Positions 352 to 25,038 of a stretch of DNA of 64,000 nucleotides are shown here, piece by piece (the first letter of the stretch is position 1; every line of letters begins with the position of its first letter). The position numbers and the translations under genes are program-made. The DNA is taken from positions 515,233 through 579,232 of the forward strand of contig NZ_LN831198.1 in NCBI RefSeq assembly GCF_001368795.1, read 5' to 3'. Origin of the DNA: Paenibacillus ihuae. GTDB taxonomy: Bacteria > Bacillota > Bacilli > Paenibacillales > Paenibacillaceae. A model generated the notes under the pieces. That model worked only from the letters and a program-made list of their open reading frames with translations. It searched no databases and was not told the origin of the DNA.

Positions 352-376
352 ACCTTCTGTCAGCGAACTTTTGTTT
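335..376 (+). terminator. Intrinsic terminator after the cysteine-cluster gene
   Basis: A perfect stem of about 17 bp (GTTCGCTGACA pairing with TGTCAGCGAAC, extended by an A-tract against a T-tract) has a 6-base loop and is followed by TTTTGTTT. The left arm also overlaps the candidate LexA box for sbcD, so this DNA may serve both roles. Confidence 0.75.
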
Positions 377-453
377 ATAATAGAGTGACATAAAACAAGG
401 AAACGTATAACCGTTAAGTTAAGCGAAAGAATTATACGAAAGGACGGAAAACC

Positions 454-8691: not shown

Positions 8692-8711
8692 AGAACACCC
8701 GTTTACTGACA
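8692..8711 (+). promoter_or_regulatory. Candidate LexA (DinR) box plus CTGACA hexamer upstream of the Z1 gene
   Basis: GAAC-ACCC-GTTT at 8693-8704 is followed with the same spacing as the other three sites by CTGACA at 8706-8711. TTTGTT follows at 17 bases and TAGAAT at 22 bases, so the -10 box is uncertain. Two copies of TTCATTAAATA (8682-8692 and 8743-8753) flank the site. Confidence 0.55.
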
Positions 8712-8775
8712 GGAAGTGGTCAATGGGATTTGTTAGAATGTATTCATTAAATACACCTACTTAAGGAGCAAGAGT

Positions 8776-10944
8776 ATGTTAAAGACAATGCAAACAGGGA
8801 TTTTTTATAATACACTAAAGGAAAAAAATGGATATAACGAGCCCTTGGAGACCTGTATTAAGGAAACTGTTGCTAAGTTACATGAGAATAATACAAGCGC
8901 TAATCGTCCGGGAATGTTACTCGGGAAAATTCAGTCAGGTAAAACTCGGACATTTATTGGAATTATGGGTCTTGCTTATGATAATGATTTCGATGTGACT
9001 ATAATACTTACCAAAGGAACAATTGCACTTGCACAGCAGACGATTGAGCGTCTAAATAGTGAATTTCATGAACTCATTCAAAATGATAAAATGCAAGTTT
9101 TTGACATCATGAATGTACCAAGTGGTCTCCGGGGTTATGTGCTTAACCAAAAACTTGTCTTTGTTGTGAAAAAGGAAAAGCGTAACATGGAACGACTCCA
9201 TAATGCATTCTTTGAGAAATACCCGTTACTTGGAGAAAAGAGAATATTAATAATTGATGATGAAGCTGACTATGCCAGTCTTGGCTTTAATAAGTCTAAA
9301 GCTGAAGGTCTGGAAATTAAAAAAATTGCCGGTAGCATAGATGAATTTCGTAAAAAAGCTGGTAAGTGCGATTTTCTCCAAGTTACAGCAACGCCATACT
9401 CTCTCTATCTTCAGCCTGAAGAATTGACGATTGAATCCAAAAAACTGGAATTCAAGCCCATTCGACCTGCCTTTACTAAATTAGTTCCCATACATAACCG
9501 GTACATCGGTGGCGATTTTTACTTTGATCAGAATGATGATGGCAGTGACTCCATTTCGAAACATTTGTTTGAAGAAGTTAGTGAAAGTGAATTGGAAGCT
9601 CTGAAAAAATCAGATCGTCGATCATTTAAAATTGAAGATTGTCTTATTAGTCCTAAAGTTAAAACACTCCGTGAAGCTATCGTCAACTTTATTGTTGGTG
9701 GCTCCATTCGTCGATTGCAGAACAGAGAATTAAATGAAGTGGAAAAGAAGTTCAGCTTTATCATTCATACCGAACAAAATAAATCCTCTCATGGTTGGCA
9801 AGATGATGTGATCCTGGCAATCTGCGATAAGTTAAATGAGGAATGCAAGGCAGATATGCCACGATATAATGAATTAGTTGAGGAAGCCTACGATAACCTT
9901 AAAGAATCAATTGATCTCTATCATTTAGAAATACCTACTATTGAATCGGTTAAAAAAGAAGTGCGGAAGGCTTTTTTGGATGAGCACATCATGACAATGG
10001 TAGTGAACTCAGAAAAAGAAGTGAAGGAACTTCTGGACGAAACAGGTCAATTGAAATTACGTACTCCACTGAACATTTTTATTGGTGGACAAATCTTAGA
10101 CCGTGGCATAACAATAGGGAATTTAATTGGATTTTATTATGGTCGAAGACCAAAAACATTTCAGCAGGATACGGTACTGCAGCATTCCCGTATGTTTGGA
10201 GCCCGCCCAATGGAAGATTTAATTGTTACCAGGTTTTATACGACCAAGCCTATTTACGATATCATGAAAAAAATCCACGATTTCGATACTGCATTGCGTG
10301 AAGCTTTTGAAAGAGGGAACCAAAATAATGGTGTGATATTTATACAAAAGGATACAAAAAACAAAATAGTACCTTGCTCGCCCAATAAGTTGTTGTTATC
10401 TAGCATCACTACGCTTAAGCCCTCATCTCGCCTACTTCCTGTTGGTTTTGAACTTAAAGCCAAAACAAACATGCAAAAGGCTGTTTCTCAGATTGATAAA
10501 ATGTTAGGTAGTAAAACCAATAACTTCGATGAGCCATTCCTAATGGATCTTGATGAAGTAATTGAAATGATCAAATTAATCGAGAGTACTTTTAAGGAAG
10601 GTCATAACTGGGATCAAAAAGCATTCATATCAAGTCTTGAGTTTTTAAGTAATCGCTCTACCACATTACAGGAACGTCAAGGGAAGGTTTGGGTTTTGGT
10701 GCGCAAAGAACGTCAGGCGCAAAGGCTCAAACAAAATGATGGACGACTTGAAAACTCGCCGGATTCTTATCAAGAGAAAAACAAGGCTCGTGATGTGGCG
10801 CAAGACATCCCAGCCTTAGTTCTGCTCCGTCAAGAGGGTGAGGTTGAGAAAGGATGGAGTGGCAATCCCTTCTGGTGGCCTGTATTAGTTACACCGGCAG
10901 ATACGCGGACGGCAGTATTTACGAGTGAAGAAGTGTCGGATTAA
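8776..10944 (+). CDS. Z1-domain P-loop ATPase, solitary
   Basis: The product is 722 aa and appears to be a superfamily-2-like ATPase of the Z1 family found in restriction and defence loci. The Walker A is GKIQSGKTRT (about residue 52), the Walker B IIDDEADYASLG, a motif-III-like QVTATPYSLYL, and a motif-VI-like region with GGQILDRGIT and QHSRMFGAR. Z1 proteins are usually encoded with a methylase, a GHKL ATPase and PD-(D/E)XK or AIPR proteins; none of these is adjacent here. The start at 8776 follows AAGGAG. The substrate is unknown, and partners may be the neighbouring McrB/C-like genes. Confidence 0.75.
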   Translation: MLKTMQTGIFYNTLKEKNGYNEPLETCIKETVAKLHENNTSANRPGMLLGKIQSGKTRTFIGIMGLAYDNDFDVTIILTKGTIALAQQTIERLNSEFHELIQNDKMQVFDIMNVPSGLRGYVLNQKLVFVVKKEKRNMERLHNAFFEKYPLLGEKRILIIDDEADYASLGFNKSKAEGLEIKKIAGSIDEFRKKAGKCDFLQVTATPYSLYLQPEELTIESKKLEFKPIRPAFTKLVPIHNRYIGGDFYFDQNDDGSDSISKHLFEEVSESELEALKKSDRRSFKIEDCLISPKVKTLREAIVNFIVGGSIRRLQNRELNEVEKKFSFIIHTEQNKSSHGWQDDVILAICDKLNEECKADMPRYNELVEEAYDNLKESIDLYHLEIPTIESVKKEVRKAFLDEHIMTMVVNSEKEVKELLDETGQLKLRTPLNIFIGGQILDRGITIGNLIGFYYGRRPKTFQQDTVLQHSRMFGARPMEDLIVTRFYTTKPIYDIMKKIHDFDTALREAFERGNQNNGVIFIQKDTKNKIVPCSPNKLLLSSITTLKPSSRLLPVGFELKAKTNMQKAVSQIDKMLGSKTNNFDEPFLMDLDEVIEMIKLIESTFKEGHNWDQKAFISSLEFLSNRSTTLQERQGKVWVLVRKERQAQRLKQNDGRLENSPDSYQEKNKARDVAQDIPALVLLRQEGEVEKGWSGNPFWWPVLVTPADTRTAVFTSEEVSD

Positions 10945-11089
10945 TTGAAAACAAATTTATCTGATATTGATTGAGATCGAATGAGAGAATGAAAGAGATG
11001 CGGAATTGTCATGGAAATGTATGATAATACTGCATCGCTTTTATTGTAGGAGTACAAATTTAATTGTTTATTGATTAAGCATGTATGTA

Positions 11090-11158
11090 TCCTAGCAGAT
11101 TATTAGAATAAGTCCTTGCTAGGAGCCCCTTGACTGTCAAATACATACAGAATATTAG
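11090..11158 (+). promoter_or_regulatory. Inverted repeat and promoter upstream of the second McrB-like gene
   Basis: TCCTAGCA (11090-11097) and TGCTAGGA (11117-11124) form an 8-bp inverted repeat. TTGACT (11130-11135) and TATTAG (11153-11158), 17 bases apart, make a reasonable promoter just downstream. The repeat has no T-tract, so it looks more like an operator than a terminator. The rest of the 280-base gap shows nothing else. Confidence 0.45.
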
Positions 11159-11224
11159 AGTTATAAAATATGGTGGCAGTTATAAATAAATGTTAAATAA
11201 TTCGAACATTCAAAGGAGCTCATT

Positions 11225-13477
11225 ATGATCAACTTATCTCAATATCAGCAAATCTTCGATATTGAAAATACCACGGAACGATGCAAAAAAGTTAATGATA
11301 CCATGGATCAGTTCTGGAAATCAGAATTAGATCAGTTGGCTGGGGAATTAATTGGTCAGGATTATAGAATTGCTACATACGGTCAAACGTTAGTGACCAC
11401 CTATCATGACTCGTTAAATCCTAAATATGCAGAGCAAAAGAAAGATACGAGTATAGGCAAAAAGTATTTTGCTCAAATCGTTGGCAATACAGGGAACAAA
11501 GAGTTCAATCTGCTAACACTCGAGTTTAACGGTGTTGAGCGTCAGTTTTATATCAATATAGAACTAAGTTTTTATCAAGTCTATGAGTTGATTAAGACTG
11601 GTCGTCTGAATTCGATGTTAAGTGAACTGGATAGTGAGATCAGAACATTCACCAGAACAGGTTCCTTCACGAAAAATGAAATTGAACGATCTGAATTGGA
11701 ACAGACTTTAACTGCAATGATTAAACCAAGAACCAGACCCTGGGTTTATTTTGGTCTAGCACTTCCTCTGGAAGGTGAGTATCAGAGCACTGATATTGTA
11801 AATATGTTAAGAGTTATATGGGAGAAGACGGCTTCACTACGGAATTATGTATTTGAGGATAGAACGCAAAGTGCTAAATCCTCGCATATTATGGCATTGA
11901 TTGCTTCGGTGGAGACGAGTTATTCGGTTTCGCTGTTTGGATATCCCTATCAGATTCATTATGGAACTCTTGAGAATGAGAAGTCGGGAACTCGGGAACA
12001 GGAATTCACATTAAAGCGGGATGGGCAGACGATTGTACAAGGCTACTTTTACTATAGTGAATATGATGTGAGATCAGCAATAAACAAACCGGTGCTTGCA
12101 GTGAATGTAGAGGGTTATAATCATATTTATGCAAACGTATCAGGTCTTCTTGATGATGATCGTAAGGAATGGTGGATTAAAAAATCATTTAAAATGCAAA
12201 ACCAAGATAACGAGGTATTAAAGCTTCGCGCGCTTGATTTACTACGTCAGAATGGTATTCCGGTACGTAATGATAATGAATATCTGACAGGTACATACAA
12301 CAATATAAAGCAGCAGTTTGAAGAAGAGCTAGCCGAAATTAAAGGGAGATTCGCTTGTGCTGCCCTTTTGTTCGCTCATGTGGGCGGGCGTGGAGGATTT
12401 AAATTTCTCGAGACCACTGCTCCAAGTGTTGAACCGGTGGATGATGATTCGGCAAACGATGATCATTCAACGGAGATTGTTGAGTACAACAGCAATTTTA
12501 ATTTTTCAGTTATTTATGAGACGATTCAGAATTGTTCCCTGACTTTTGATAAAGATTTAATCCGTGACCTACATCTGAATTTGACAGCTTTGAACGATAA
12601 GCATTTTGTTATTCTAAGCGGTATTTCGGGAACGGGCAAAACACAGCTAGCTAAACTCTACGCAAATGCAGTATATGGTTTGTCCTATGAAGCTGACAAT
12701 CCGTATTTATCTATAATACCTGTTCGTCCGGATTGGACGGATGCGACTGCTTTGTTTGGCTATTACAGCTCTTTTGAGAATGGATATATTATGACAGAAT
12801 TCTTAAAGGCGATCCTTCACGCTCAAGAGGAGCGCGAGAAACCACATTTTATTGTACTCGACGAAATGAATCTAGCCCGGGTCGAGTATTATTTAAGCGA
12901 TTATCTGAGCGGGGTGGAATCACATCATGAAATTCCTTTGCATAATCGAGATGACCTAGTACTGATTCCTTCCAAAATTAAAATACCGCCGAATGTATAT
13001 CTTATTGGAACGATAAATGTAGATGAAACAACACATAGTATCTCGGACAAGGTATTAGATCGTGCATTCGTTATGACATTAAGCGAGGTGGATCTGCAAA
13101 CTTTTTGGAGTCGTGTAGATGATGGTGTCAGAGCGGAACTGCAGAACGAATTTGTATTTTTGAAGCTACTGAATGGGTTGTTGGCTCCTTATCACCTGCA
13201 TTTTGGATACCGGACAATGAATGAGATGATTCAGAAAATGAGCAGCTATCTTGCGTTAGATGTTGAACATCAGGGCTCAAGAAAGGCTATGCTGGATCGT
13301 GTTATTGCGGAGAAGGTGCTTCCGAAACTTAGAGGTGATGATCGGATAGCTGATCTGCTTAAAGAACTAAAAGAAACCTTCTCTGAAAATTTGAATGAAG
13401 AATCAGTAAGTTACGGTCATATTATTCGTATGGAGAAGGAGCTTGTACGTTATGGAGCAACACAGTTCTGGCGGTGA
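11225..13477 (+). CDS. McrB-like AAA+ ATPase (second system)
   Basis: At 750 aa this has an unrecognised N-terminal half and a C-terminal AAA domain. The Walker A is GISGTGKTQLAK (about residue 467), the Walker B FIVLDEMNLARVEYYLSD, and the sensor region LIGTINVDETTHSISDKVLDRA. This replaces the MNTADR signature of classical McrB. The pattern matches ATPases paired with DUF2357-type nucleases in McrBC-like systems. It overlaps the next gene by 26 bases. The start follows AAAGGAG. It shares little obvious sequence with the first McrB, so it is a distinct lineage, not a recent duplicate. Confidence 0.8.
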   Translation: MINLSQYQQIFDIENTTERCKKVNDTMDQFWKSELDQLAGELIGQDYRIATYGQTLVTTYHDSLNPKYAEQKKDTSIGKKYFAQIVGNTGNKEFNLLTLEFNGVERQFYINIELSFYQVYELIKTGRLNSMLSELDSEIRTFTRTGSFTKNEIERSELEQTLTAMIKPRTRPWVYFGLALPLEGEYQSTDIVNMLRVIWEKTASLRNYVFEDRTQSAKSSHIMALIASVETSYSVSLFGYPYQIHYGTLENEKSGTREQEFTLKRDGQTIVQGYFYYSEYDVRSAINKPVLAVNVEGYNHIYANVSGLLDDDRKEWWIKKSFKMQNQDNEVLKLRALDLLRQNGIPVRNDNEYLTGTYNNIKQQFEEELAEIKGRFACAALLFAHVGGRGGFKFLETTAPSVEPVDDDSANDDHSTEIVEYNSNFNFSVIYETIQNCSLTFDKDLIRDLHLNLTALNDKHFVILSGISGTGKTQLAKLYANAVYGLSYEADNPYLSIIPVRPDWTDATALFGYYSSFENGYIMTEFLKAILHAQEEREKPHFIVLDEMNLARVEYYLSDYLSGVESHHEIPLHNRDDLVLIPSKIKIPPNVYLIGTINVDETTHSISDKVLDRAFVMTLSEVDLQTFWSRVDDGVRAELQNEFVFLKLLNGLLAPYHLHFGYRTMNEMIQKMSSYLALDVEHQGSRKAMLDRVIAEKVLPKLRGDDRIADLLKELKETFSENLNEESVSYGHIIRMEKELVRYGATQFWR

Positions 13478-14945
13478 TTTTCTGCTCCGATTAAATGGTG
13501 AAGCATGGGTTACCTTGGAAGATGCCTACTTAATCGAAGCGACTACCTACGATTGGAAGTATGTAATGAAAGACTTGGAACCGCAGCCTTCGGTCCAGTT
13601 TTGCGGTTTGCGGCATTTCCCAAATCGAATCTGTGAAGGAGAAGTTTATGGTCAATTAACGACACCTTTTTATAGCGGCCAGGTCACTTTAGTGATTAAT
13701 GGAGTAGTATTTGATACTTATATTTATTCGGATACCCGGAAAATGACGCAGGAGCAATATCACCTCATGTTAAGTGAGATTTTACAGGAAGCGTCGCTTT
13801 GTTTCGAGCATTCGGGGATTGAACTGGGAGTTGATGCCGATGATCGTTCGCGTGAGCTTTCTTTGGCACAATGGAGCTATATTGAAGCATCGTTCTCTTC
13901 ACTTGCAACCATGATCCGACACGTGATTGAGAACCCGACTAGGGTACTTCAAGCCCATGAACAACAAATGAGACGGGATCGAGTCAAGGTAGTGGATACG
14001 CGAACACTGGTCTGGGTAGAACGAAATAGAGGGCGGAGCCCTAATGGAACCATACCGAAAACAGTGAAATCTTCTATGCGAGAAGATAACTACAACACAT
14101 ATGAGAATAGGCTGATAAAGCGGCAACTGATGGAACTGAGAAATCTGCTGAAGCTGTACGGGAATACAAGTCCGGCAGAATTTGCAAGTAGAGCTGAAGC
14201 CTATGCTGATAAAGTAGGGTATTGGCTAAGAGATCCTTTTTTTCAGCAAGTAACTCCCTACCAAGCTGTGATCCGAATATCCCAAGTGTTTCGAAAACAT
14301 CCCGTATACCGACAGTGCTATCAATGGTTTGATCGCTTATACAAGCATGGGAAAGAACGAATCGGCATGAGTTACAATTATCCGCTGAGAGAAACTTTTG
14401 CGCTATATGAGATATGGTGTTATATGCAACTTGTGAAGCTTTTTCGGGAAAAGGGCTTATTAAAAGACAGCAGTAGGTTATTCCGAACCAGAAGGGAAGG
14501 GATTTTCCTTCATTTTGCAGAGCACAACGAGAGTGTTGTCCAGTTAAAGAATGGTATGCAACTATCCTATCAACGGGTATTTCAAAGTAATTCACCGCAC
14601 TTTTACACCTTTACACAGAAGATGGTCCCCGACATTGTTATTGATGCAGGAGAACGTCTATATATTCTCGATCCTAAATACCGCGTAGCTAGCAATTTGG
14701 GGACAGCACTTGGAGAAATGCATAAGTACAAGGATGGAATTTTGCTACGCCATAACGACGAACGTGCAGTTCAGAGCGTTTATATCTTGACCCCTGTTCA
14801 GAGCGATGAACTTCGTTATTTCACGGCAGATTTTCACGAAAGATATAATATGGGGGCAATGACGGTTATGCCGGGTGGTGGCATGAGATCACTAGAGATG
14901 TGCGTAGATAAACTGGTGCATGAGGTAGAGGAAAGGCTTATTTAA
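13452..14945 (+). CDS. DUF2357-type PD-(D/E)XK nuclease partner of the McrB-like ATPase
   Basis: The 497 aa protein has a DUF2357-like N-terminal and middle region (NTYENRLIKRQL is characteristic). It ends in a nuclease core with PDIVIDAG, LYILDPKYRV and then GEMHKYKDGIL (residues about 395-430). The D, D-x-K order and trailing helix fit the PD-(D/E)XK fold. It is the functional equivalent of McrC for the upstream ATPase. GGAGAAGGAG lies before the ATG at 13452, which is therefore preferred over the TTG at 13443. Confidence 0.75.
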   Translation: MEQHSSGGDFLLRLNGEAWVTLEDAYLIEATTYDWKYVMKDLEPQPSVQFCGLRHFPNRICEGEVYGQLTTPFYSGQVTLVINGVVFDTYIYSDTRKMTQEQYHLMLSEILQEASLCFEHSGIELGVDADDRSRELSLAQWSYIEASFSSLATMIRHVIENPTRVLQAHEQQMRRDRVKVVDTRTLVWVERNRGRSPNGTIPKTVKSSMREDNYNTYENRLIKRQLMELRNLLKLYGNTSPAEFASRAEAYADKVGYWLRDPFFQQVTPYQAVIRISQVFRKHPVYRQCYQWFDRLYKHGKERIGMSYNYPLRETFALYEIWCYMQLVKLFREKGLLKDSSRLFRTRREGIFLHFAEHNESVVQLKNGMQLSYQRVFQSNSPHFYTFTQKMVPDIVIDAGERLYILDPKYRVASNLGTALGEMHKYKDGILLRHNDERAVQSVYILTPVQSDELRYFTADFHERYNMGAMTVMPGGGMRSLEMCVDKLVHEVEERLI

Positions 14946-14963
14946 AAAGTCAGGAGGATGCAA

Positions 14964-15377
14964 ATGTCAATTCCAGATAAAGGTCTAATAATCGAACATT
15001 TAAGCAATAAGTACAGTTGTAAATTAACAACCATGACAAGAAAACAAATCATGTTCGAGGGAAACAAAAATGGCGAACGCATTGTTGTATGTACTCCGGG
15101 TTCTAAAATACACAAAAAAGGTAGTGGTTGGTTCGATTTGAAAATGGCTCAAGTTGAACTTTTAGATGACGCTAATATTTCGATTTTGGCTGTAAGACTT
15201 GAGGGGAACAAAGTATATTATATAGATTTCAAAGAGCTTAGGAAATTGATAACTCCTGATTACATTGTATTTACACCTCATATAGGTGAACATTGGAAAT
15301 TTTTTGTTTGGGAGTCTCATATCGAGATTCAAGGGAATAGAGAAAAATTCTATGTTCAGCCAGAATTTGTTTCTTGA
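14964..15377 (+). CDS. Small protein of unknown function in the second McrB-like operon
   Basis: The product is 137 aa. An AGGAGG at 14952-14957 sits six bases before the ATG at 14964; the ATG at 14958 would be too close to it. It is soluble and mixed alpha/beta, with a conserved-looking block WFDLKMAQVELLDDA, then ILAVRLEGNKVYYIDF, and a later GEHWKFFVWE. No catalytic motif is evident. Its position 18 bases after the nuclease gene suggests a third component of that system. No family is recognised. Confidence 0.6.
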   Translation: MSIPDKGLIIEHLSNKYSCKLTTMTRKQIMFEGNKNGERIVVCTPGSKIHKKGSGWFDLKMAQVELLDDANISILAVRLEGNKVYYIDFKELRKLITPDYIVFTPHIGEHWKFFVWESHIEIQGNREKFYVQPEFVS

Positions 15378-15408
15378 ATTAGTGACCTCACAGAATCGGA
15401 ATTTATTT

Positions 15409-15428
15409 CGAACATACATTCGCTGACA
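15409..15428 (+). promoter_or_regulatory. Candidate LexA (DinR) box plus CTGACA hexamer upstream of the pPIWI-RE operon
   Basis: CGAAC-ATAC-ATTCG at 15409-15422 differs by one base from a perfect Gram-positive SOS dyad. CTGACA follows at 15423-15428. TAGTTT lies 17 bases downstream and TATCCT 22 bases downstream, so the -10 is not settled. The operon starts at 15490. Confidence 0.65.
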
Positions 15429-15489
15429 ACTAATAGTCACACCCATAGTTTATCCTATATCTATCAATCTTCTAATAGGATGGTGCTCT

Positions 15490-16551
15490 ATGGCTAAAAC
15501 ACATGACACTCTTCTGTCCCTGATCAAAGGCATTAACAAATGGCAGGGCGACTATGGCAGGATTCCGGATGAGCTTTATAAGGGAATGCTGCTGTTCATT
15601 GAACAGACAGCTGCTTCTAAAGCTCAACCTCCGGTTGATCTATATCATCTACTGCAAACTCTTCATCGCCCCTCCAAAGAATGGGGGATCCCTGATCTCC
15701 AAGACTATTACCCCGAAGAAGCTTCTTTGTTAGAAGAATTCATTGGCTTAACGCCGGATGCTGATGAGTTCCTGAACAGATATGTCTCCCCACAGGATGC
15801 TGAGCAACAGACTATGTATGAGATCCTCATGTACTGCCGAGAAGAAGATCGACAGCTTCAGCAGGAATATACTCGCATCCGCACGTTTCTATCTAATCCA
15901 AAAAATGCCGTAGTTACTTCCTTTCAATTGTCCCAATTTGCTGATACATTCCTTGATGTTCAACTAACGAATTTGATCAAACAATGTTATGAAGAAATAA
16001 CACCTGCGGTGGCAAACTTTCGGAAGTGCCCCCACTGTGGATGGACCCTGGAGTATAAGAATGACCGGTGGCGTTGTAATAAGGAAGATATCTGTCATCT
16101 GCTTGCTGATTTTGAGCGCATGAGTTCTTTTGATTTTGGTAAAGAAAGGGTATTGCGGCTTGTACCCGGAATTCAAAGATTTGTATTGCTGCCTGGAATA
16201 TCTGAACTTAGAATCGCCGAACGATTGATTCGTAAGGGATATCAGGTTGAGCTCTATCCCAATGTAGATGAATATGATCTCTTGGTATCCGAAGATGGAA
16301 AAAGGATCTTTCTTGATGTCAAGGACTTTAGAGATCCACGGACGCTTGCTAATTTCTTCAATCATCAGAGTCCTGCCTACCTGGAAAAGTACAAGAACAA
16401 ATGCCTTATTGTAGTTCCGAATTATCGCAGCCAGCTCTTCGCATCTTATCGTGAACGAAGTATGAATCTGCTAAACGAAACTGCTAGGGCATGTATCGAA
16501 ATGATTATGGAGAAAGAAATTGAATCCACGCTGAAGAAGGTGTTTCTGTGA
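15490..16551 (+). CDS. pPIWI-RE module restriction-endonuclease-fold DNase
   Basis: The 353 aa protein is the first gene of a three-gene module. A zinc-ribbon-like segment CPHCGW...RWRCNKEDIC lies near residues 178-198. The C-terminal half has a restriction-endonuclease core, with EYDLLVSEDGKR then IFLDVKDFRD (about 257-282), giving the D and D-x-K catalytic set. This matches the REase protein that Burroughs, Iyer and Aravind described beside pPIWI-RE and a helicase. Cleavage of invading DNA is inferred from the family. It overlaps the helicase by 4 bases (GTGA). Confidence 0.8.
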   Translation: MAKTHDTLLSLIKGINKWQGDYGRIPDELYKGMLLFIEQTAASKAQPPVDLYHLLQTLHRPSKEWGIPDLQDYYPEEASLLEEFIGLTPDADEFLNRYVSPQDAEQQTMYEILMYCREEDRQLQQEYTRIRTFLSNPKNAVVTSFQLSQFADTFLDVQLTNLIKQCYEEITPAVANFRKCPHCGWTLEYKNDRWRCNKEDICHLLADFERMSSFDFGKERVLRLVPGIQRFVLLPGISELRIAERLIRKGYQVELYPNVDEYDLLVSEDGKRIFLDVKDFRDPRTLANFFNHQSPAYLEKYKNKCLIVVPNYRSQLFASYRERSMNLLNETARACIEMIMEKEIESTLKKVFL

Positions 16552-19500
16552 GGCAGACTTATTGGGATCTTTCCGAAGGTTTCATCAAGGCGTTTGAATC
16601 ACTTCAACTGCGTAAGTCCGAAATTAACCTTCTGGTGAGCATGGAGTTATTCATTACAGGTTGTACTTTGATCGATCCTAAGCTATCTATCCATCAAGCG
16701 TGGTCAGTTTTGGTTGGTTACAATGAACCCATTCTGAAACATACCACTCGCTCGGACATCATCACCCGGCTGAGAATTCTATTTCCTGAACTGCGAACCA
16801 AGAAGAATCTCTTGAAACGAATCAATGCCTATATGGAAATCGGGAGTGAGTATCGGTTATACGAGATCAAGGAGGATGAAGGAGCGATTCGTATTGCTCC
16901 GCGTTATTTAATTGACCGTTCTTCTATCTATAGCAATATCCTTGAACATTCCATCCCACGCCAGTTGAATGCTAAACCCTTTGCTAATGAAAAAGTGTTT
17001 ACATACTCTCGAAGGATTCGAGGTGGGCAATGGATTACCTTCCAGGGGGAAATCCCTGAATCTATGCTCTCCAATGAAGTCAAACCTCTGCCAGCGTATC
17101 GGCCTAAAAGAATATTTAAGCTTTCGGTCCCATATAACGGAGCTGTATTAGCAACTGAGATGGATCAACTCCTAGGAGCATCGGCCATGTGGGTAAGTAG
17201 GGCCAAGTCTGTGCTTTTGGAATCGCTTGATGGTATGGATCTAGAATTTGTGTATCAAGGGAATCAACACATTGGTGGGGGGCTTGGAGCAGGGAAGTCG
17301 ACTTTTATGATGATGGAAGCCTACCGGCTGGTAAAACATGAGGGTGCAAGGGTAGGCTTCATTGAAGGTAGTGTTATGCAGGCCCTTGAACGTGTAAAAG
17401 AATTGCGTAAGCTTGGAATACATGCAGTTCCTGTTATTGGGAGAACCTCCAGAGAAGATCATCTCAATAACTATTTGTTTGCGAATAGCAGTGGCATTCA
17501 AGAGGTTAGTGATTGGAAGAGCCAGCAGCATGAGTCACTTATTCATTTATCTGATGTCTGTATCATTAAAGCGTTGGCTGAAGATTATGATCGGAGTAGC
17601 AGATATCCTTGTGTCCAGTTGCAGCAAGACGATACATCTGTGAAATGTCCGCTTGCACATGCCTGTGGTGTATATAAAGATTTATCTTCCTTGCAGAATG
17701 CTGAAGTATGGGTTGCCACTGCGCCGAGTGTTCTAAAGACACGTATATCAGCAGTGATTGATCCCTTGGAGAGAACGATTTACGAAGCCATGTATGACCT
17801 GCTTGATGTTGTTTTTGTAGATGAAGCGGATCAGGTGCAGAAGCAGTTTGATGAGACCTTTTTGACACAATACAATGTGTTCGGGGCAGCTGACGATATC
17901 TTTGAACAGTTAAGATATGAATCTAATGAACTTACTAGAGGACAATATGGTCAGTATGCTGGTGATTCTGCCATTATTGAGTGGAACGATAGACTCCGTA
18001 TGCTTGACCAGATGATCTGGCAAATTTATCGCAAGCTGGACTTATCTCAGACGTTGCGGAAGGATATACGGAATAATCTGATTCGGGTGGCAGCATTGGC
18101 AGGCACACTAAGTGAAAAACTCTCTGACAATACTCAACTACAGTCAAAGTTATTCAAACGTTTCAGCGAATACGCCTCAGACCCATACAAAGATCCAATA
18201 CTCTCAAGAATCGTTGATGAGATTGTAGAGGCAGAGAGCCCCGAGCAGAAGCAGAGACTCCTGGAGCAGATTATATCCAAAGTAAAAGGAGTCCTAAAAC
18301 CAAGGGTGAAAATAGAACTGCTCTTTGCGCAGCTTGAATTCTTCCTGTACTTATGTAGGGCAGAGGAGAGTATCAAATACATTTTAACTACGTTTCCTAT
18401 GATTCAAGCTAAACTTGGCCTATCGATTAATTTCTCACCTTTGTTTACTATGCAGAAGGATTATCAAGCATTTATGAAAGAAGCGATGACCGGGATTACC
18501 TTAGGATATAAATATGACTTGCCTGACAATGAAAAGACCGGGAAATTCAAGCTGATTGAATATACTGCTGTGGGCCGTCTGCTGCTTCATGATTGGCATA
18601 ATTTGTATCAAGAATGTGACGGGAAAGCAGGTCCTGCAGTTGTATTTCTCTCAGGAACCAGTCATGCTCCGAAGTCGGCTCATTACGACTTGGAGACACC
18701 TTCAGAATGGTTGCTAAGAGCAAACCGCCAAAGCTCAGTTATTCAAATGAATTATAAGCCCGTGCTTGATGAGGTTAATGAAGGGTTTTATGCCGTGTCA
18801 GGTATTTGTAATCCAGAACAGAGAAATCAATATTTAAGTGGGATGGTGCAGCATCTAAAGCCAGATATTGAATATGAGCTGAAACACTGGAGAACTGAAG
18901 GTAACAACAGGAGAGTATTACTAGTTGTGAACTCTTATGATGACGTTGAAACAGTATGCAGTGTTTTTCGGAATGATCGAATTTGGAAGGGCAGATATAA
19001 GGCGCTCTCAAGGGATGATGGTCACCAAGAAGATCAGTATTCTAGAGTATTGATCGAATCCTTTTATCGGGAACGGGCTGAGATATTGATTGTACCCCTA
19101 TTGTCCGTTGGTCGGGGATATAACATATTAGATAGACAGGGAGAGGCGCTCTTCGGTTCAGTATTCTTTCTGGTTCGTCCTTACCCCATACCCAATGATC
19201 TGAATTATCTTGTTCAGGTCCTGCATGCGTATTTGCCAGAATATATGCGTCGAATAGAAGGAAAGAACCTTGTTTACGATAAGGCGGTTACCAAGCTACG
19301 GCAAATCAGCAGCAGTAAGCTGGAGCATATGTATATAAAACCGGATTTCTGGTCGATCTTAAGTCCCAAAGAAAGAGAGATTCTGGGATGGTACACTTTT
19401 GTTCCGGTATGGCAAATGATCGGTCGTTTGCTGCGTGGAGGGTTAGATGCCCGTGTCCACTTCTGTGATGCTAAGTTCAACGCTAAACCAGCAGGTAACC

Positions 19501-19631
19501 CTGAAGGATATTCGATGCTTGAAGTATGGGCAGCAATTATGCGCAAGAACAAGAAGGATGCTATTTTCCAAAGTTTATATGGGCCCTTTAGCGAAGCGAT
19601 TAATAATATGAATATAGGAGGCAGTCTATGA
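16548..19631 (+). CDS. pPIWI-RE module DinG/XPD-like helicase
   Basis: The 1027 aa protein starts with GTG, overlapping the upstream stop. The Walker A is GLGAGKSTFMM (about residue 243). The DExx motif is VVFVDEADQVQK (about 420). Between them lie cysteines at about 338, 355, 367 and 373 (the last two in KCPLAHAC), placed as in the FeS-cluster domain of XPD/DinG helicases. Late motifs include VPLLSVGRGYNI and a terminal MIGRLLRGG, fitting motifs V and VI. It probably unwinds a duplex or R-loop for the PIWI protein and the nuclease. It overlaps the PIWI gene by 4 bases. Confidence 0.8.
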   Translation: MRQTYWDLSEGFIKAFESLQLRKSEINLLVSMELFITGCTLIDPKLSIHQAWSVLVGYNEPILKHTTRSDIITRLRILFPELRTKKNLLKRINAYMEIGSEYRLYEIKEDEGAIRIAPRYLIDRSSIYSNILEHSIPRQLNAKPFANEKVFTYSRRIRGGQWITFQGEIPESMLSNEVKPLPAYRPKRIFKLSVPYNGAVLATEMDQLLGASAMWVSRAKSVLLESLDGMDLEFVYQGNQHIGGGLGAGKSTFMMMEAYRLVKHEGARVGFIEGSVMQALERVKELRKLGIHAVPVIGRTSREDHLNNYLFANSSGIQEVSDWKSQQHESLIHLSDVCIIKALAEDYDRSSRYPCVQLQQDDTSVKCPLAHACGVYKDLSSLQNAEVWVATAPSVLKTRISAVIDPLERTIYEAMYDLLDVVFVDEADQVQKQFDETFLTQYNVFGAADDIFEQLRYESNELTRGQYGQYAGDSAIIEWNDRLRMLDQMIWQIYRKLDLSQTLRKDIRNNLIRVAALAGTLSEKLSDNTQLQSKLFKRFSEYASDPYKDPILSRIVDEIVEAESPEQKQRLLEQIISKVKGVLKPRVKIELLFAQLEFFLYLCRAEESIKYILTTFPMIQAKLGLSINFSPLFTMQKDYQAFMKEAMTGITLGYKYDLPDNEKTGKFKLIEYTAVGRLLLHDWHNLYQECDGKAGPAVVFLSGTSHAPKSAHYDLETPSEWLLRANRQSSVIQMNYKPVLDEVNEGFYAVSGICNPEQRNQYLSGMVQHLKPDIEYELKHWRTEGNNRRVLLVVNSYDDVETVCSVFRNDRIWKGRYKALSRDDGHQEDQYSRVLIESFYRERAEILIVPLLSVGRGYNILDRQGEALFGSVFFLVRPYPIPNDLNYLVQVLHAYLPEYMRRIEGKNLVYDKAVTKLRQISSSKLEHMYIKPDFWSILSPKEREILGWYTFVPVWQMIGRLLRGGLDARVHFCDAKFNAKPAGNPEGYSMLEVWAAIMRKNKKDAIFQSLYGPFSEAINNMNIGGSL

Positions 19632-22114
19632 ACAGAATGGAGCTCTTTGCACTGGAAGTAAATGAAGCGGTATTCTATCATGAAACGATTCATGTCATGC
19701 ATATGCCAGACAGCTGGCGCAATTTTTTTATTACACAAGCTACACCTCAAAACCACAAGCTTGCATATAAGGTTGAACCTCTTTGCAAAAAGCTTAAGAG
19801 CATATTTCCGGAGATTGTTCATGTGGATTTAAATAATAAAGTACTGCAAAAAGACTTGCCATGGATTGTATCTACTGTTGAAATTCCAGAGTCTCATATT
19901 AAAAAGCTCACTCTAGGCTGGTTTGCATATTTGAAAGGATATTCAGAAGCGAATCTCCCGGAAGAAATTAAAGAGGCCGAGCTGGGATGGGAAACTTCTA
20001 CATTTGGCGAGCTTCATGAATCTATTGATAAATACCAGTGGCTTCCTGGCTTGGCAGCTCATAAGTTCTGTGAAGAACTGCGAACAGTTGAGTTAGGGAA
20101 AGGTATTGTAGAGGCGCTCCAGTTTCATCATACGATCTTTAATAATCAGCATGAATGTGTCTCCACTCCGATCAGGAAATCACCGAAACACGATCCTTTC
20201 TCTTATGTACTGAAGGTTGAACTGAAGAATCGTGGTGGGGATGCTGATAGACCGCTTATTCTTGTAACTGTAGGTACAAGGCGGTATTTGAGGAACGCAC
20301 AAATTAAGGAAGGTTCCTGTTATTTAAAAGCGGATCATGCCTGTTCAGTTCTTGTGTCAGTCCGTAATCCGTATACATTGCAAGAGAAGCTTTCTTTCTC
20401 ACAGCTTCAGTTTGAGCGTCGTGCTGGTAGTGGACAGGGAACACCGCCTTTTGCAGTCTGGAAAACAGCCCTGGATGGTTTGTATTGGGATGTTCTGTAC
20501 GGAGAATCCCTCGAACCGGATAGTTTGCTCTCTAACCCTGCTGCATTCCTGGACGGAAAGGGTGAAGTTACTGCCTATGTAGTCAATCATCATTCGTTCA
20601 ATGGCAAAGGTAACTTTGTGAAGTCAGGACTCGGGTTGTCGGAGAAAAGTGGTCTGTTTAATAAATTTAAAGAAGTACTTGCTATGTATCATCTAACACC
20701 GTTATTTCATATTCCGGAGATCCCTCGTAAGCGTATGAATGACATTCGGTTCCCTATTGTCGCGCATCAAGCAGAAAAGCTTATTATTGAGGTTTATAGT
20801 AGTGAAGCAATGTTTACTGCAATGAAAGAAGTTTATACGACCGAACAAAAATCACTGGAAAATAAATCGATAATCTTTAATCGTCAAATTTCAGAGAATG
20901 TCTATGGGCTCAATTGCGATAAGGATGTAACCGTAGAATTCGTATACTGCAATCCTATTGAAATTGTAAGTGAACTGGAAGTTGGAACATATAAATCTGA
21001 TGTTGCCTTTATCAAGCGAGTGAATCAAATTAACAAGCTGCTTAATGAAGAACGGACTTCCGGGGATCAGCGGACATTGGCATTAGTGGAGATTGCGCCT
21101 AAAGAAAACTGGAGCAAAAACGGTGATCCTAAGAGAGCTATAAGGGAAGGGATGAAAAAGGCAAGACGTCTTACTCAGTTCATACATCCTCTTACAGGAG
21201 ATGAGAAGGGGGATACTGCTCGCATAATCAATGCATTATTTGATTTACTTAATGATGCAGGCTTCCTAAGCAACAATGTAACCAAGCTAGATTCTTACGG
21301 TCCAATTCTGTCATTTAATATTTTAAAAGCAGACAACAAACATTTACCTGTCATATCAAAAATGGATGGTACAGAGACGATGTTGAAGATATTCGGAGTT
21401 GAGTCATGGCTACCTTTAGGAGAGGCGCCTTTTTATCTGGAACAGGTCAAAATGTTGGATAATCCGGGTAAAGGGAATCAAAGTAAACAGATTTTTTTGG
21501 ATTTTATGGTAAGAGCTATTGAGAATGAGCTTGGTCAAGATATAAAGCAGCTAACAGTAATGATCAATGCGACTCTGAGAAAGGACTGGCTTCCAGTCAT
21601 TCGAAATACTGACATTCAATACGATAAAGTTCCTTATCTGAGCGAACGGCTAGTAAATGATGCCCGTCTTAAGTTTATACGTGTTAATATGACGGATGAT
21701 GTGCCGCAATATAGAATTATTGAAGATGATGCTGAAGAGAAATTCAACAAAGCTTCGGGGATTTTCAAAGATCCACTAGGGATTTATTATGGTGTTGGTG
21801 GAAGGCCAAGAGCATGGTCTGGTGTGAGAAACGAAGATATCAAGTTCCTGTCACCTAGCAAACTGCTGCTTCAGCAGAAAGCAGTCGAGTACATTCCTCT
21901 GGGAGAGCTGGATGAGATGGAACGTGATGATTTGGCAAATTTAGTTGATCAGCTTCGAAGAGTAGGTCTGAATTACGATAAACACACGATATATCCTTAT
22001 GGTATTCGGATCACAAAAATTCTGTCGAAATATTTAACTGGAGAAGAGAAGAATTATGATCCGGAGTTTGATGAGGGAGTGGAGTTTTGGGAGGAGGTTG
22101 AGGAGTTGGTGTAG
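19628..22114 (+). CDS. pPIWI-RE family prokaryotic Argonaute/PIWI protein
   Basis: The 828 aa protein has the length and layout of the pPIWI-RE family: an N-terminal DUF3962-like region and a C-terminal RNase-H-fold PIWI domain with family-specific R and E residues. Visible landmarks are TLALVEIAPKENW (about residue 485), LTVMINATLRKDWLP (about 640), YGVGGRPRAWSG (about 720) and the C-terminal YPYGIRITKILSKYL. The ATG overlaps the helicase stop. The proposed family role is guide-directed recognition of foreign nucleic acid, possibly RNA-DNA hybrids; this is prediction. A terminator follows. Confidence 0.8.
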   Translation: MNRMELFALEVNEAVFYHETIHVMHMPDSWRNFFITQATPQNHKLAYKVEPLCKKLKSIFPEIVHVDLNNKVLQKDLPWIVSTVEIPESHIKKLTLGWFAYLKGYSEANLPEEIKEAELGWETSTFGELHESIDKYQWLPGLAAHKFCEELRTVELGKGIVEALQFHHTIFNNQHECVSTPIRKSPKHDPFSYVLKVELKNRGGDADRPLILVTVGTRRYLRNAQIKEGSCYLKADHACSVLVSVRNPYTLQEKLSFSQLQFERRAGSGQGTPPFAVWKTALDGLYWDVLYGESLEPDSLLSNPAAFLDGKGEVTAYVVNHHSFNGKGNFVKSGLGLSEKSGLFNKFKEVLAMYHLTPLFHIPEIPRKRMNDIRFPIVAHQAEKLIIEVYSSEAMFTAMKEVYTTEQKSLENKSIIFNRQISENVYGLNCDKDVTVEFVYCNPIEIVSELEVGTYKSDVAFIKRVNQINKLLNEERTSGDQRTLALVEIAPKENWSKNGDPKRAIREGMKKARRLTQFIHPLTGDEKGDTARIINALFDLLNDAGFLSNNVTKLDSYGPILSFNILKADNKHLPVISKMDGTETMLKIFGVESWLPLGEAPFYLEQVKMLDNPGKGNQSKQIFLDFMVRAIENELGQDIKQLTVMINATLRKDWLPVIRNTDIQYDKVPYLSERLVNDARLKFIRVNMTDDVPQYRIIEDDAEEKFNKASGIFKDPLGIYYGVGGRPRAWSGVRNEDIKFLSPSKLLLQQKAVEYIPLGELDEMERDDLANLVDQLRRVGLNYDKHTIYPYGIRITKILSKYLTGEEKNYDPEFDEGVEFWEEVEELV

Positions 22115-22158
22115 TGTGTATTCTTATAGGAACAGGCAATATAAAGCTGAGATTAATC

Positions 22159-22187
22159 AAGACGACATTCTTGTCGTCTTTTTTAGT
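22159..22187 (+). terminator. Terminator of the pPIWI-RE operon
   Basis: AAGACGACA and TGTCGTCTT form a 9-bp stem with a TTCT loop, followed by TTTT. It lies 45 bases after the stop codon. Confidence 0.88.
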
Positions 22188-22256
22188 TAGCTTTTAGTTA
22201 ACAAGGACTTCAGACTCGATTTGTCGAATTAATTCGAATAAGGGAATATTTTCAAA

Positions 22257-22276
22257 TGAACATACGTTCGCTGACA
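22257..22276 (+). promoter_or_regulatory. Candidate LexA (DinR) box plus CTGACA hexamer upstream of the helicase pair
   Basis: TGAAC-ATAC-GTTCG at 22257-22270 matches the Gram-positive SOS dyad in both core arms. CTGACA follows at 22271-22276, and TATGGT lies 17 bases further (22294-22299). It shares TTCAAAT upstream with the sbcD site. A 14-base palindrome, TCGAATTAATTCGA, is at 22224-22237. Confidence 0.7.
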
Positions 22277-22341
22277 AGTGGTTGTCTAGGTAATATGGTC
22301 TAATAGAAACAGGCAGTAAGATGAATGGAGGCGGAGTAGAA

Positions 22342-25035
22342 ATGGCGTTTCTGAAATGTTCAATGTGTTCAAGCATGCTTAAGGCTGTTCAAATATCTCA
22401 TAGAATCAGTCAGGTTGGAGAGCAGCGGAGTTTAGAGTATACCCCTAATGGAATCAAATGTTCAGATTGGTCTCAAAAAATGGAAACATATAGAGAACAT
22501 TCGGAAGGCGTCTACTGCCCGGAATGCCTGGCAAATGTAAATCTGGAAAAGGATGAAATGCCCTTGTGTGAGGATTCTCGGATTCCAGGAGTGAGCAGTA
22601 GTGAGTTTTCGGCCAATGAAGTCCTAGAGAAGCTAAAAACACTAGCCGATGAAGAGAATGCTGAGATTCATGTACATACTTTACCGGCCAAGGATGCTAT
22701 TTATTCAGAAATTCCAGCATTTATACCACAGCCGATCCGGGATTCTTTAAGCCGTATGGGAATAAATCAACTCTATGTGCATCAGGCGCAAACAGTAGAA
22801 GCGGTACATAGAGAATCAAATGTGGTGTTAGTAACTTCAACTTCGTCAGGTAAGACTTTGTCATACAATTTGCCGATTCTTAGTTATCTTTATGATCATC
22901 CTAATGATAAAGCACTATACTTATTCCCAACAAAAGCTTTGGCCAATGATCAATTGGATCAACTCAAACGCTTTGGTGAAATCAAATCTTCCAATCAGCC
23001 ATCTTTGGATGAGTGGTTTGAGACCGAATTAAAGTTAGGTGAACGAATCATACATGCAGGTCGACTAGATGGAGATACGGAGAATGGGCCAAGGCAGCGG
23101 ATTATGGAAAAAGCACAGATATGGATGAGCAACCCGGATATGATCCATTATTCTATTCTTGGCCAGGTTCAAGCGTTGAAATATTCTTCAGGGACGTATA
23201 TCCGGAATTATCTTTGCAATCTCAAATTTATAGTGCTCGATGAGATGCATATGTATCGCGGTACGTTTGGATCCCATGTTGCACTGGTACTTCGTCGATT
23301 ACTAAAAGTATGCCGTGAGCTGGGAAATAACCGGAATATTCAGATCATAACCAGTTCGGCTACCATAGATAATCCGGTGAAATTGGCTCAGGATCTAACA
23401 GGTCTTACAGAGTTTGTACTCATTGATACGGATGGTTCAGCTCATCAGCGCAAAGAGATCGTTCTATGGAATCCAGGGATATCAGCTGGTGAGCAGGTTA
23501 GACGTGCACCCTCAACGGATGCAATTACGATTGCTAAGCAAGCTATGACCGTCAATCAGAAAGTAATTAAGAGTATTATCTTTCAGCCCTCCCGGAGTCA
23601 GACGATGGTGTTTACCAAATATATTAAAGACGTTTTAAGACAGCCTCTTCGCTTGCCAAAAGAACGTGTCGAAGGAGAAAAACTAGCTGCCTTTTACACG
23701 GGGATATTGCCTAATGAGACTCGGAAACGAATTATCGAACGCCTGAAATCCCACGACATCCACGTAGTTATTACTACAAATGCACTTGAAGTAGGGATTG
23801 ATATTGGTGATTTGAGTCTGGCTGTCTTGGTTGGGTATCCTGGTTCGAAGGCAGCATTCTCACAGCAGATCGGGCGTGTAGGGCGGAAAGGTGAGGGAGT
23901 TGCCATACTCATCTGGCAAGATGATCCACTTCAGCAATATTACATGCGCAATCCTCATGAATTTCTGCATAAAGCGCCTGAAGTTGTAAGAATTAATCCG
24001 ACTAATTATAAGATATTGGCGCTTCATTTACCTTTACTCAAAGAAGAACTTGGGCGGGATTTAACGGAAATAGATCTGAAAAGTATGTTTCCGAACCTAG
24101 ATGAGGAATATATTCAATCCATCTTGCAGACCGCAGTTGCAGCAGAAGGAACAGAAGAAGCGGTTGTAGATAAGAAGTTTAGTCTCCGTTCAATCTCAGG
24201 TCAAAGCTACAGTGTATCTATTCGTGGACAGAATCACTCTGTAGTGGATGGCCTGGATGAATGGAGTGCTATGAGGGATTTCCATGAAGGGGCCATCTAC
24301 TGGACACCAGGCGATAAAGCGTATCGTGTAGATTCCATTAATCGCCGGAAGGGTGAAATTATTCTTTTGCCTATTCAGGAGTTGACTTATCATACTCAAT
24401 CTTCTTATAAAGATAAAATTGATGTTATCCAAACGTACCAGAAACATGATGATGAAGAAATTAATATGGCCTATGGTGAGTTTGAGATTAAGAGAAGTGT
24501 ATTTGGTTACAAAAAGCTATACTTTGGGCAAAAGGGTGATTCAGAACAAGTGACTCTAACACATCCATCGGTAACGAAATTTGCTCCAGAAGGAACTTGG
24601 CTAACCATTACAGATTCAGATTGGCTGCTGCTAAAAGAGAATATTCAGGATTGGGCAAGTGAACATCGAACTACCGAGATGCTGATAGAGGCTTCACTTC
24701 ATGCCGCCCAGCATGCTATGACGTCGGTAATTCCAGATATGATCATTTGCGATGCTAATGATTTTACAGGCTTCTCTGCAAGCGGAATCTCTGCATTTGC
24801 TAATCGACCGGTTATTGGGTTTTATGGAGAAAATGGTTCGGGGCTTGGAACAATCGAGGCGATTTACGAGAATACAACTAAGGTGATGCGTAAGGCACTT
24901 GAACTTATGGAGAGCTGCCCTTGTAGTGAAGGATGTCCAAGTTGTGTTCAGCTCCCTGGTAAGTACAATAATGTTGAACTATTTAAACCTGGAGCAAAGA
25001 TACTCCTGAAATCTTTAATCGAGAGGAACGATTAA
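22342..25035 (+). CDS. DEAD/DEAH-box helicase with C-terminal cysteine cluster (MrfA/DUF1998-like), copy 1
   Basis: The 897 aa SF2 helicase has motif I TSTSSGKTLSYN, motif II VLDEMHMYRG, motif III TSSATIDNP and motif VI QIGRVGRKGEG. The C-terminus carries CPCSEGCPSCVQ, the zinc cluster seen in YprA/MrfA-type helicases. The N-terminus has CSMC and CPEC pairs that could bind another zinc. The ATG at 22342 is chosen because GGAGGCGGAG precedes it and the product then lines up with the start of copy 2. The MrfA family acts in DNA repair, and related DUF1998 helicases serve in DISARM and Druantia defence. Confidence 0.82.
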   Translation: MAFLKCSMCSSMLKAVQISHRISQVGEQRSLEYTPNGIKCSDWSQKMETYREHSEGVYCPECLANVNLEKDEMPLCEDSRIPGVSSSEFSANEVLEKLKTLADEENAEIHVHTLPAKDAIYSEIPAFIPQPIRDSLSRMGINQLYVHQAQTVEAVHRESNVVLVTSTSSGKTLSYNLPILSYLYDHPNDKALYLFPTKALANDQLDQLKRFGEIKSSNQPSLDEWFETELKLGERIIHAGRLDGDTENGPRQRIMEKAQIWMSNPDMIHYSILGQVQALKYSSGTYIRNYLCNLKFIVLDEMHMYRGTFGSHVALVLRRLLKVCRELGNNRNIQIITSSATIDNPVKLAQDLTGLTEFVLIDTDGSAHQRKEIVLWNPGISAGEQVRRAPSTDAITIAKQAMTVNQKVIKSIIFQPSRSQTMVFTKYIKDVLRQPLRLPKERVEGEKLAAFYTGILPNETRKRIIERLKSHDIHVVITTNALEVGIDIGDLSLAVLVGYPGSKAAFSQQIGRVGRKGEGVAILIWQDDPLQQYYMRNPHEFLHKAPEVVRINPTNYKILALHLPLLKEELGRDLTEIDLKSMFPNLDEEYIQSILQTAVAAEGTEEAVVDKKFSLRSISGQSYSVSIRGQNHSVVDGLDEWSAMRDFHEGAIYWTPGDKAYRVDSINRRKGEIILLPIQELTYHTQSSYKDKIDVIQTYQKHDDEEINMAYGEFEIKRSVFGYKKLYFGQKGDSEQVTLTHPSVTKFAPEGTWLTITDSDWLLLKENIQDWASEHRTTEMLIEASLHAAQHAMTSVIPDMIICDANDFTGFSASGISAFANRPVIGFYGENGSGLGTIEAIYENTTKVMRKALELMESCPCSEGCPSCVQLPGKYNNVELFKPGAKILLKSLIERND

Positions 25036-25038
25036 GAG

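Follow-up and report, generated by a model that had tools for sequence, protein, structure and literature searches.

The window analysed here, a 64,000-nucleotide stretch of the Paenibacillus ihuae genome (NZ_LN831198.1, positions 515,233 to 579,232), holds a block of defence genes in which several operons, among them one for a pPIWI-RE system, lie behind a shared promoter element, and the locus raises the question of what this element is and which proteins read it. An earlier note on this DNA had described four such promoters, each with an SOS-like dyad followed directly by CTGACA. All four were located, with GAAC beginning at 333 (sbcDC), 8693 (Z1 operon), 15410 (pPIWI-RE operon) and 22258 (helicase operon), and the pattern given for them, GAACANNNRTTYRCTGACA, occurred exactly four times in the window and never in 100 dinucleotide shuffles. 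A slightly looser 19-mer was found exactly at five places in the 6.72 Mb source assembly (6,723,505 bases in 13 contigs, of which C1, C2 and C7 are cited below), four of them inside the window; with up to two mismatches the whole assembly yielded 108 matches, compared with 49 for a reversed control. The four promoters therefore hold as a description of the window, but as a scope four is too small, as the element recurs across the family. We propose, with a probability of about 0.6, that it is a composite, activator-dependent promoter that would join two DNA-damage inputs, LexA acting on one palindrome and a WYL-family regulator on a second.

The conserved unit extends further downstream than the earlier note described. 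It runs GAAC-N4-RTTC (pal1), two bases, TGACA-N6-TGTC (pal2), about 12 bases and a -10 hexamer; the TGTC half, 6 nt past TGACA, is replaced by GGTC at the Z1 operon and AGTC at the pPIWI-RE operon. pal1 lies at approximately -53 to -42 and pal2 at approximately -39 to -25, in place of a -35 box. Conservation was assessed in 142 distinct 47-mers, reduced from 240 site matches from all searches, with thresholds of at least 7/8 letters for pal1, 8/9 for pal2 and 2/3 of the fixed -10 letters, plus a pre-filter that dropped one site of the source genome (C1:505307). Position 9 apart, the letters of pal1 and pal2 were near invariant, and the TGTC partner carried G in 142/142 and C in 139/142 sites, figures driven in part by the thresholds. 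The N4 of pal1 prefers ATAY, pal2 and the -10 hexamer are separated by mostly unconstrained positions, and strong conservation is limited to the operator and -10 positions. The distance from pal1 to pal2 in this set was fixed by the search design.

Because the -10 hexamer was part of the search pattern for many of these loci, the spacing was retested without a -10 filter in the window and loci L001-L174. In 32 island-type sites the match to TATAAT peaked 12 nt past pal2 (mean 4.41 of 6 letters; the next best of 36 spacings gave 3.03), and TANNNT stood at 12 nt in 20 of the 32. The same was true of 19 of the 21 core-type sites; these 21 are orthologous to one another and form a class whose own definition used a TGGTA motif close to the -10 hexamer. 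At sbcDC the element is mirrored, in the order pal1-pal2-pal1', and is predicted to form a 19-bp hairpin (-29.1 kcal/mol, z score -9.3).

These distances bear on CTGACA, which the earlier note had offered as either the -35 box or an operator extension. The distance from CTGACA to the proposed -10 hexamer is 22 nt at three window sites, 24 nt at sbcDC and 22 nt in 127 of the 142 sites (a set partly selected on the -10 hexamer). When spacers of 16-18 were scanned across the 142 sites for a -35 hexamer, the best matches to TTGACA were no better than random and none reached 5/6. The first option was rejected because the spacing is wrong and the TGTC partner is conserved; the second was nearer the mark, CTGACA forming the left half of pal2, a second operator. 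With no -35 hexamer, the promoters look activator-dependent, and an operator in the -35 region at a set distance from the -10 hexamer is the arrangement seen in WYL activators.

Within the source genome, CTGACA-N5-TTGTC-N12-TANNNT was found at eight places with up to one mismatch: the Z1, pPIWI-RE and helicase operons, two type I restriction operons, the core WYL locus described below, a stretch free of open reading frames (ORFs) and a MarR gene. pal2 plus the -10 pattern alone, with up to two mismatches, gave a modest excess of 49 places over 32 in the control. Five further copies of the element were present in the fetched parts of this genome, at C1:218221, C1:505307, C1:3949386 (weak pal2), C7:93479 and C7:106112 (weak pal1), the two weak copies both passing the thresholds. 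Three candidates were set aside. The MarR site (C2:444569) matches pal2 within one mismatch and is probably a chance match, because it is absent from the sites that also have pal1. A LacI gene (C1:824858) carries AAACATACGTTCCCTGACA without the right half of pal2 and was therefore left out, and the right half is also missing ahead of an island WYL gene (C1:494593).

The element is widespread. A 29-mer of pal1, CTGACA and TTGTC, with up to two mismatches, was detected in 79 of 100 genomes of the genus, and its reversed control gave three matches in all; a 47-mer that includes the -10 hexamer, with up to one mismatch, was detected in 221 of 394 genomes of the family, spanning 15 of 19 genera, with a single match for the reversed control. 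A scan of named genomes with an extended pattern returned at least 118 stretches; the 80 matches listed were mostly from Paenibacillus, and also from Cohnella, Brevibacillus, Neobacillus and uncultured Bacillota.

Likeness to the boxes of SOS genes makes it very probable that pal1 serves LexA as an operator. lexA was present in 100 of 100 genomes of the genus, and the region upstream of the source genome's lexA, which also serves a divergent gene, presumably yneA from the gene order, contains GAAC-N4-GTTY boxes. From lexA promoters of the genus 37 distinct GAAC-N4-GTTY boxes were taken. The recA box was CGAATGTATGTTCG in 30 of 30 fetched recA loci (out of 40 relatives with recA), and the pPIWI-RE box at 15409-15422, CGAACATACATTCG, is its reverse complement. 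The earlier note had proposed SOS control and named clearly different boxes at lexA and recA as what would tell against it; the same type of box was found at both, which lends good support to reading the dyad as an SOS box. The four window cores are GAAC-N4-RTTY, with G at position 9 in three and a final C in three. The sbcDC 14-mer AGAACAAAAGTTCG is listed as an SOS box of the Bacillus subtilis prophage SPbeta (PMC8270828), and the pal1 consensus of the 142 sites, GAACATAYRTTC, is in keeping with the consensus given for B. subtilis LexA, CGAACATATGTTCG (PMC8270828), elsewhere written GAACN4GTTC (PMC4234289). Beside the GAAC-type boxes of the lexA and recA loci, pal2 is missing at its phase, the best match to it among 289 box-like places being 6/9 letters.

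The recA gene of the source genome was not found in the assembly with TIGR02012. As recA was present in 40 of 40 other genomes of the genus examined (two only partly), this is probably an assembly gap. A separate 81-codon ORF (L047, C1:315022-315267) matches only the DNA-binding part of LexA; a LexA-like box, CGAACGCATGTTTG, stands approximately 200 bases ahead of it, and a further reading frame lies in the interval.

pal2 is probably read by a WYL regulator of the DNA-damage type, as linkage and homology suggest. The commonest copy of the element (61 of 142 distinct sites) stands ahead of a fast-evolving gene of 216-255 codons, which is followed by a WYL regulator gene; we refer to this as the core locus. 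In the source genome the core WYL gene is C1:219208-220173. It was present in 18 of 18 core-type loci examined, in each behind the gene of no known family, and the element also stands at many other loci. Synteny and co-occurrence make its product the most likely reader of pal2. The protein has the Pfam domains HTH_11, WYL and WCX, with HTH_PafC below threshold, and so the helix-turn-helix (HTH)-WYL-WCX order of such regulators. A profile built from 18 sequences matched PafBC in the PDB with an E value of 2.4e-9 and DriD chains weakly (about 1e-3); Foldseek with the core WYL model also ranked PafBC and DriD first, and listed BrxR and CapW.

The DNA-binding half of the core WYL protein (E <= 1e-38) was found in 180 of 394 family genomes, in 4 of 19 genera. 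The 47-mer site was present in 176 of the 180 genomes with the gene, compared with 45 of the 214 without it (Fisher p 2e-62, counts tallied by eye), and two of the four exceptions (G005, G034) do carry a site, spaced at 13 nt. With the two core-bearing genera set aside, the site was present in 7/7 genomes with the gene, six of them from one genus, compared with 45/212 without (p 3e-5). The WYL gene lay within 3 kb of 51 of 74 core-like sites, in a split by sequence letters that places some defence sites (e.g. L205, L309) among the core-like ones. Within the flanking sequence examined, 10 of 68 island-like sites are also followed by a related WYL gene (at L351 it is the core gene itself), and such genes could act locally. 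The window has a divergent WYL-domain gene at 39922-40881 on the minus strand, and no element copy was found ahead of it.

Several observations weigh against this composite reading. At position 9 of pal1, A stands in 64 of 142 sites and in none of the 37 lexA-promoter boxes; A does occur there in the relatives' recA box. The core-type sites match TATAAT hardly better at 12 nt (mean 3.86) than at 15 nt (3.67), and the mirrored sbcDC-type sites break the 12 nt spacing, with TANNNT there in 1 of 11. The AlphaFold model of the core WYL protein is weak, with a predicted local distance difference test score (pLDDT) of 65, and is thus unfit for modelling DNA binding, and its Foldseek template-modelling scores against full-length chains of PafBC and DriD do not exceed about 0.3. 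The co-occurrence of site and WYL gene is uncorrected for phylogeny, many of the sites being orthologous and not independent, and the search for the gene scored at most 11 candidates per genome. In 21 of the 98 genus genomes that have the core WYL gene, only its DNA-binding half is kept (an open frame below 160 aa, tallied by eye), 70-76% identical in the four such orthologues examined (e.g. L149-L152); the half presumed to sense single-stranded DNA is therefore dispensable there, which a simple sensor model does not explain. Finally, sites occur without the core WYL gene in 45 genomes, where island WYL paralogues may serve pal2, and 14 WYL-domain matches in the source genome leave more than one candidate for its reader.

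If the composite reading is right, the promoter would work as a pair of locks that both answer to single-stranded DNA. In an undamaged cell LexA would sit next to the activator site and the promoter would be off. Phage DNA, restriction or other damage would generate single-stranded DNA, upon which RecA would trigger LexA cleavage and the WYL protein, a relative of PafBC and DriD, would be activated. Bound to pal2, the WYL protein would replace the -35 box and recruit sigma-A RNA polymerase; it would most likely be the core chromosomal one, or else island paralogues. The genes behind the element suggest that one damage signal could in this way switch on much of the anti-phage arsenal. Of this scheme the analysis shows the architecture with its preferred spacing, its conservation, the downstream genes, the match of the pPIWI-RE pal1 to the recA box and the linkage to the WYL gene, whereas binding by LexA and by the WYL protein, the sign of the WYL effect and induction by damage are inferences.

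The same architecture could be worked the other way round, with the WYL protein a repressor over the -35 region that is released by a signal and LexA as the second lock. The HTH-only orthologues are easier to read as repressors, BrxR and CapW are among the Foldseek matches, and CapW is reportedly a repressor. BrxR, a WYL protein that governs a defence island, is a repressor (PMC9122601). We nevertheless consider repression unlikely: the promoters lack a -35 hexamer and look activator-dependent, and both sequence and fold rank PafBC first and DriD above BrxR, PafBC and DriD being activators. Alternatively WYL regulators alone might read the whole 29-bp element, with pal1 merely resembling a LexA box, a reading that would suit the single pal1-pal2 distance (set by the search in the 142 sites), the mirroring of pal1 at sbcDC and the frequent A at position 9. 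It is hard to reconcile with a pPIWI-RE pal1 that agrees with the recA box in every letter and a pal1 consensus that fits that of B. subtilis LexA (PMC8270828), and appears distinctly improbable.

An ordinary SOS promoter, a LexA box with CTGACA as its -35 and no second regulator, would be the simplest account, CTGACA being one base off TTGACA. The -10 peak 22 nt from CTGACA, the conserved TGTC partner and the poor showing of pal2 beside the lexA and recA boxes leave it very little room. That the element is a mobile repeat or a chance likeness without regulatory role is scarcely credible: two copies (L096 and L353, below) do lie near mobile genes, but strong conservation falls only at operator and -10 positions, the downstream genes differ and the controls are near zero. 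The composite promoter with LexA on pal1 and a WYL activator on pal2 is the reading carried forward here.

Away from the core locus, the genes downstream of the element vary between genomes. Gene counts were run outward from the element, leaving defence operons that lack it (pPIWI-RE and others) outside the count, and families were named for 54 distinct hand-picked proteins near the sites. By blastp against the window genes, 13 distinct sites have a pPIWI-RE restriction endonuclease (REase) as first gene, 6 have sbcD and 4 an MZB helicase. Pfam and PADLOC identified HsdM with HsdS as first genes at two loci of the source genome (L093, L097), with HsdR behind once; other first genes encode a Piwi-domain Argonaute (L309), Cas3 (L247), MmeI (L308), SIR2 (L281) and an RNase_T exonuclease (L209). 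Farther downstream were an OLD-type gene and GajB (Gabija) behind pPIWI-RE at L170, McrB (L322), BrxC of bacteriophage exclusion (BREX, L287), DndF (Dnd, L168) and PbeA (L205). The weak pal2 site at C1:3949386 is followed by a gene for 148 aa and then HmaA. A known defence role is not universal: L216 has PH-domain membrane proteins and then a WYL gene, and several first genes belong to no known family.

One gene pair recurs behind the element, an AddB-like PDDEXK gene with a UvrD-like gene, often accompanied by a WYL gene (L092:9710-13628 in the source genome, L155, L160, L165, L169, L174 and L210). The PDDEXK gene of L092 had only Cas4-like PADLOC matches, and the pair is possibly an undescribed defence system. 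The divergent genes adjoining the L092 and L095 sites showed no blastp relation to each other. The fast-evolving gene of the core locus (source copy L094:4303-4950, C1:218302-218949) had no Pfam match when the source copy was scanned in a longer frame; its structural model (pLDDT 88) resembles parts of VWA proteins and of ArnA/B-Sec23/24 outside the VWA domain, as well as other beta-sandwich proteins such as integrins.

The window features are collected in the table. The Z1-domain helicase, first gene of its operon, received the PADLOC label Helicase_II. Matches in the pPIWI-RE operon were PF18154, PF18155, PF13111, PF18157 and PF13032 in Pfam and PprRE, PprDinG and PprPIWI in PADLOC. Homologues of both the MZB helicase and the 919-aa gene stand behind the element at locus L159.

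Table. Promoter features and operons of the four element copies in the window
Feature	Position in window	Strand	Basis or remark
pal1, putative LexA-type operator GAACAAAAGTTC, sbcDC promoter	333..344	+	sequence match
pal2 TGACA-N6-TGTC, putative second operator, sbcDC promoter	347..361	+	sequence match
Mirrored pal1' AAACAAAAGTTC, sbcDC promoter	365..376	-	1 mismatch; 19-bp hairpin with 333-361
-10 candidate TATAAT, sbcDC	376..381	+	14 nt past pal2, not 12
sbcD and sbcC, first operon behind the element	454..4699	+	ORFs; names from earlier sequence reading
pal1 GAACACCCGTTT, Z1 operon promoter	8693..8704	+	sequence match
pal2 TGACA-N6-GGTC, Z1 promoter	8707..8721	+	sequence match
-10 hexamer TAGAAT, Z1 promoter	8734..8739	+	sequence
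Z1-domain helicase, AAA and DUF2357/PDDEXK_7 nuclease genes	8776..14945	+	Pfam PF10593, PF07728, PF09823, PF04411
pal1 GAACATACATTC, pPIWI-RE promoter	15410..15421	+	sequence match
pal2 TGACA-N6-AGTC, pPIWI-RE promoter	15424..15438	+	sequence match
-10 hexamer TATCCT, pPIWI-RE promoter	15451..15456	+	sequence
pPIWI-RE operon: REase/Y, DinG-like helicase with Z domain, PIWI protein	15490..22114	+	Pfam and PADLOC
pal1 GAACATACGTTC, helicase operon promoter	22258..22269	+	sequence match
pal2 TGACA-N6-TGTC, helicase promoter	22272..22286	+	sequence match
-10 hexamer TCTAAT, helicase promoter	22299..22304	+	sequence
MZB-type DEAD-box helicase gene, then 919-aa gene	22321..27798	+	Pfam PF00270, PF09369 for the first

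Two copies of the element precede stretches without a sizeable gene. At L096:5290-5500 (C7:93289-93499, minus strand) the element is followed by approximately 170 nt without a sizeable ORF on that strand, ending in a G+C-rich hairpin and a T-run, with a fold mildly better than that of shuffles (z score -2.0); a transposase gene lies approximately 2.4 kb away. This stretch is a candidate damage-induced small RNA. Rfam gave one implausible match to it (E 0.73) and no similar phage records were found. The only exact match of the 47-mer in a viral contig, L353:740-966 (IMGVR_UViG_3300003841_000032, minus strand), has the element and then approximately 190 nt with no listed 100-aa ORF on that strand and a terminator-like hairpin; the contig carries terminase, portal and head protease genes. 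In Rfam it gave an epsC match elsewhere and one chance-like match. A phage may here use the host defence promoter for a small RNA.

No earlier description of the element was found in literature on WYL proteins, LexA and SOS, defence islands and Paenibacillus, in a search that lay outside most subscription journals and all bioRxiv preprints and covered part of the text of what it reached. SOS, WYL and Paenibacillus do not occur in the main text of a paper on pPIWI-RE (PMC3702460). In the examples compared, as far as those sources go, WYL control of phage defence is confined to single loci. Tentatively, the Paenibacillaceae may possess an immune regulon in which the composite LexA and WYL promoter, read by a chromosomal WYL protein, would act as a socket that wires incoming islands (PIWI, Argonaute, CRISPR, restriction, Gabija, BREX, Dnd) to a signal of single-stranded DNA or damage, with joint induction at phage replication, and from which some mobile elements would have borrowed the promoter for small RNAs. 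If true, a promoter common to unrelated systems and tied to SOS would mean that bacteria can operate their immunity as a single inducible programme, would account for the way islands gain regulation on arrival in a new host and would give a testable prediction for pPIWI-RE systems. The element is also a sequence signature for finding unknown defence genes in this family.

Among known systems, the promoters with the RecA-NDp motif, TTGTCRGTG-N8-TAnnnT, are similar in that TTGTC stands 12 nt from the -10 hexamer here. The motif as a whole is not reproduced: the present site is palindromic, RGTG is unconserved at positions 30-33 of the 142 sites, and a single source-genome site, C1:505307, fits fully. 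Mycobacterial PafBC is likewise of the WYL family and relies on an element near -26 where a -35 box would otherwise stand, and its activation by single-stranded DNA is known (PMC11804915). PafBC is, however, a heterodimer with a non-palindromic site (PMC6789036), whereas here the site is a palindrome and the core gene stands alone. The B. subtilis-type LexA regulon shares the GAAC-N4-GTTC operator, as seen in the genus recA box at pPIWI-RE and the SPbeta SOS box at sbcDC (PMC8270828); the difference is that here a second operator accompanies the box at one distance, and the box stands ahead of many anti-phage systems. Caulobacter DriD is a homodimeric WYL activator with a GAC/GTC palindrome overlapping the -35 region (PMC12340889). 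Its site is ATACGAC-N7-GTCGTAT, the probe has GACA-N5-TGTC and the distance from the -10 hexamer is fixed; the spacing is GAC-N7-GTC there and GAC-N8-GTC (GACA-N6-TGTC at the same place) here, and a LexA box is not described beside the DriD site in the portion of that paper drawn on (PMC12340889). SiwR, another WYL activator, binds a palindrome between -35 and -10 (PMC10693628). BrxR and CapW, of BREX and of the cyclic oligonucleotide-based anti-phage signalling system (CBASS), are WYL proteins that govern phage defence; BrxR represses its own island via inverted repeats (PMC9122601), whereas here one element stands ahead of many systems and the core regulator gene lies outside the window island. 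In the shared control of defence genes the arrangement is like RptR, a repressor of restriction systems in diverse bacteria (PMC12255303).

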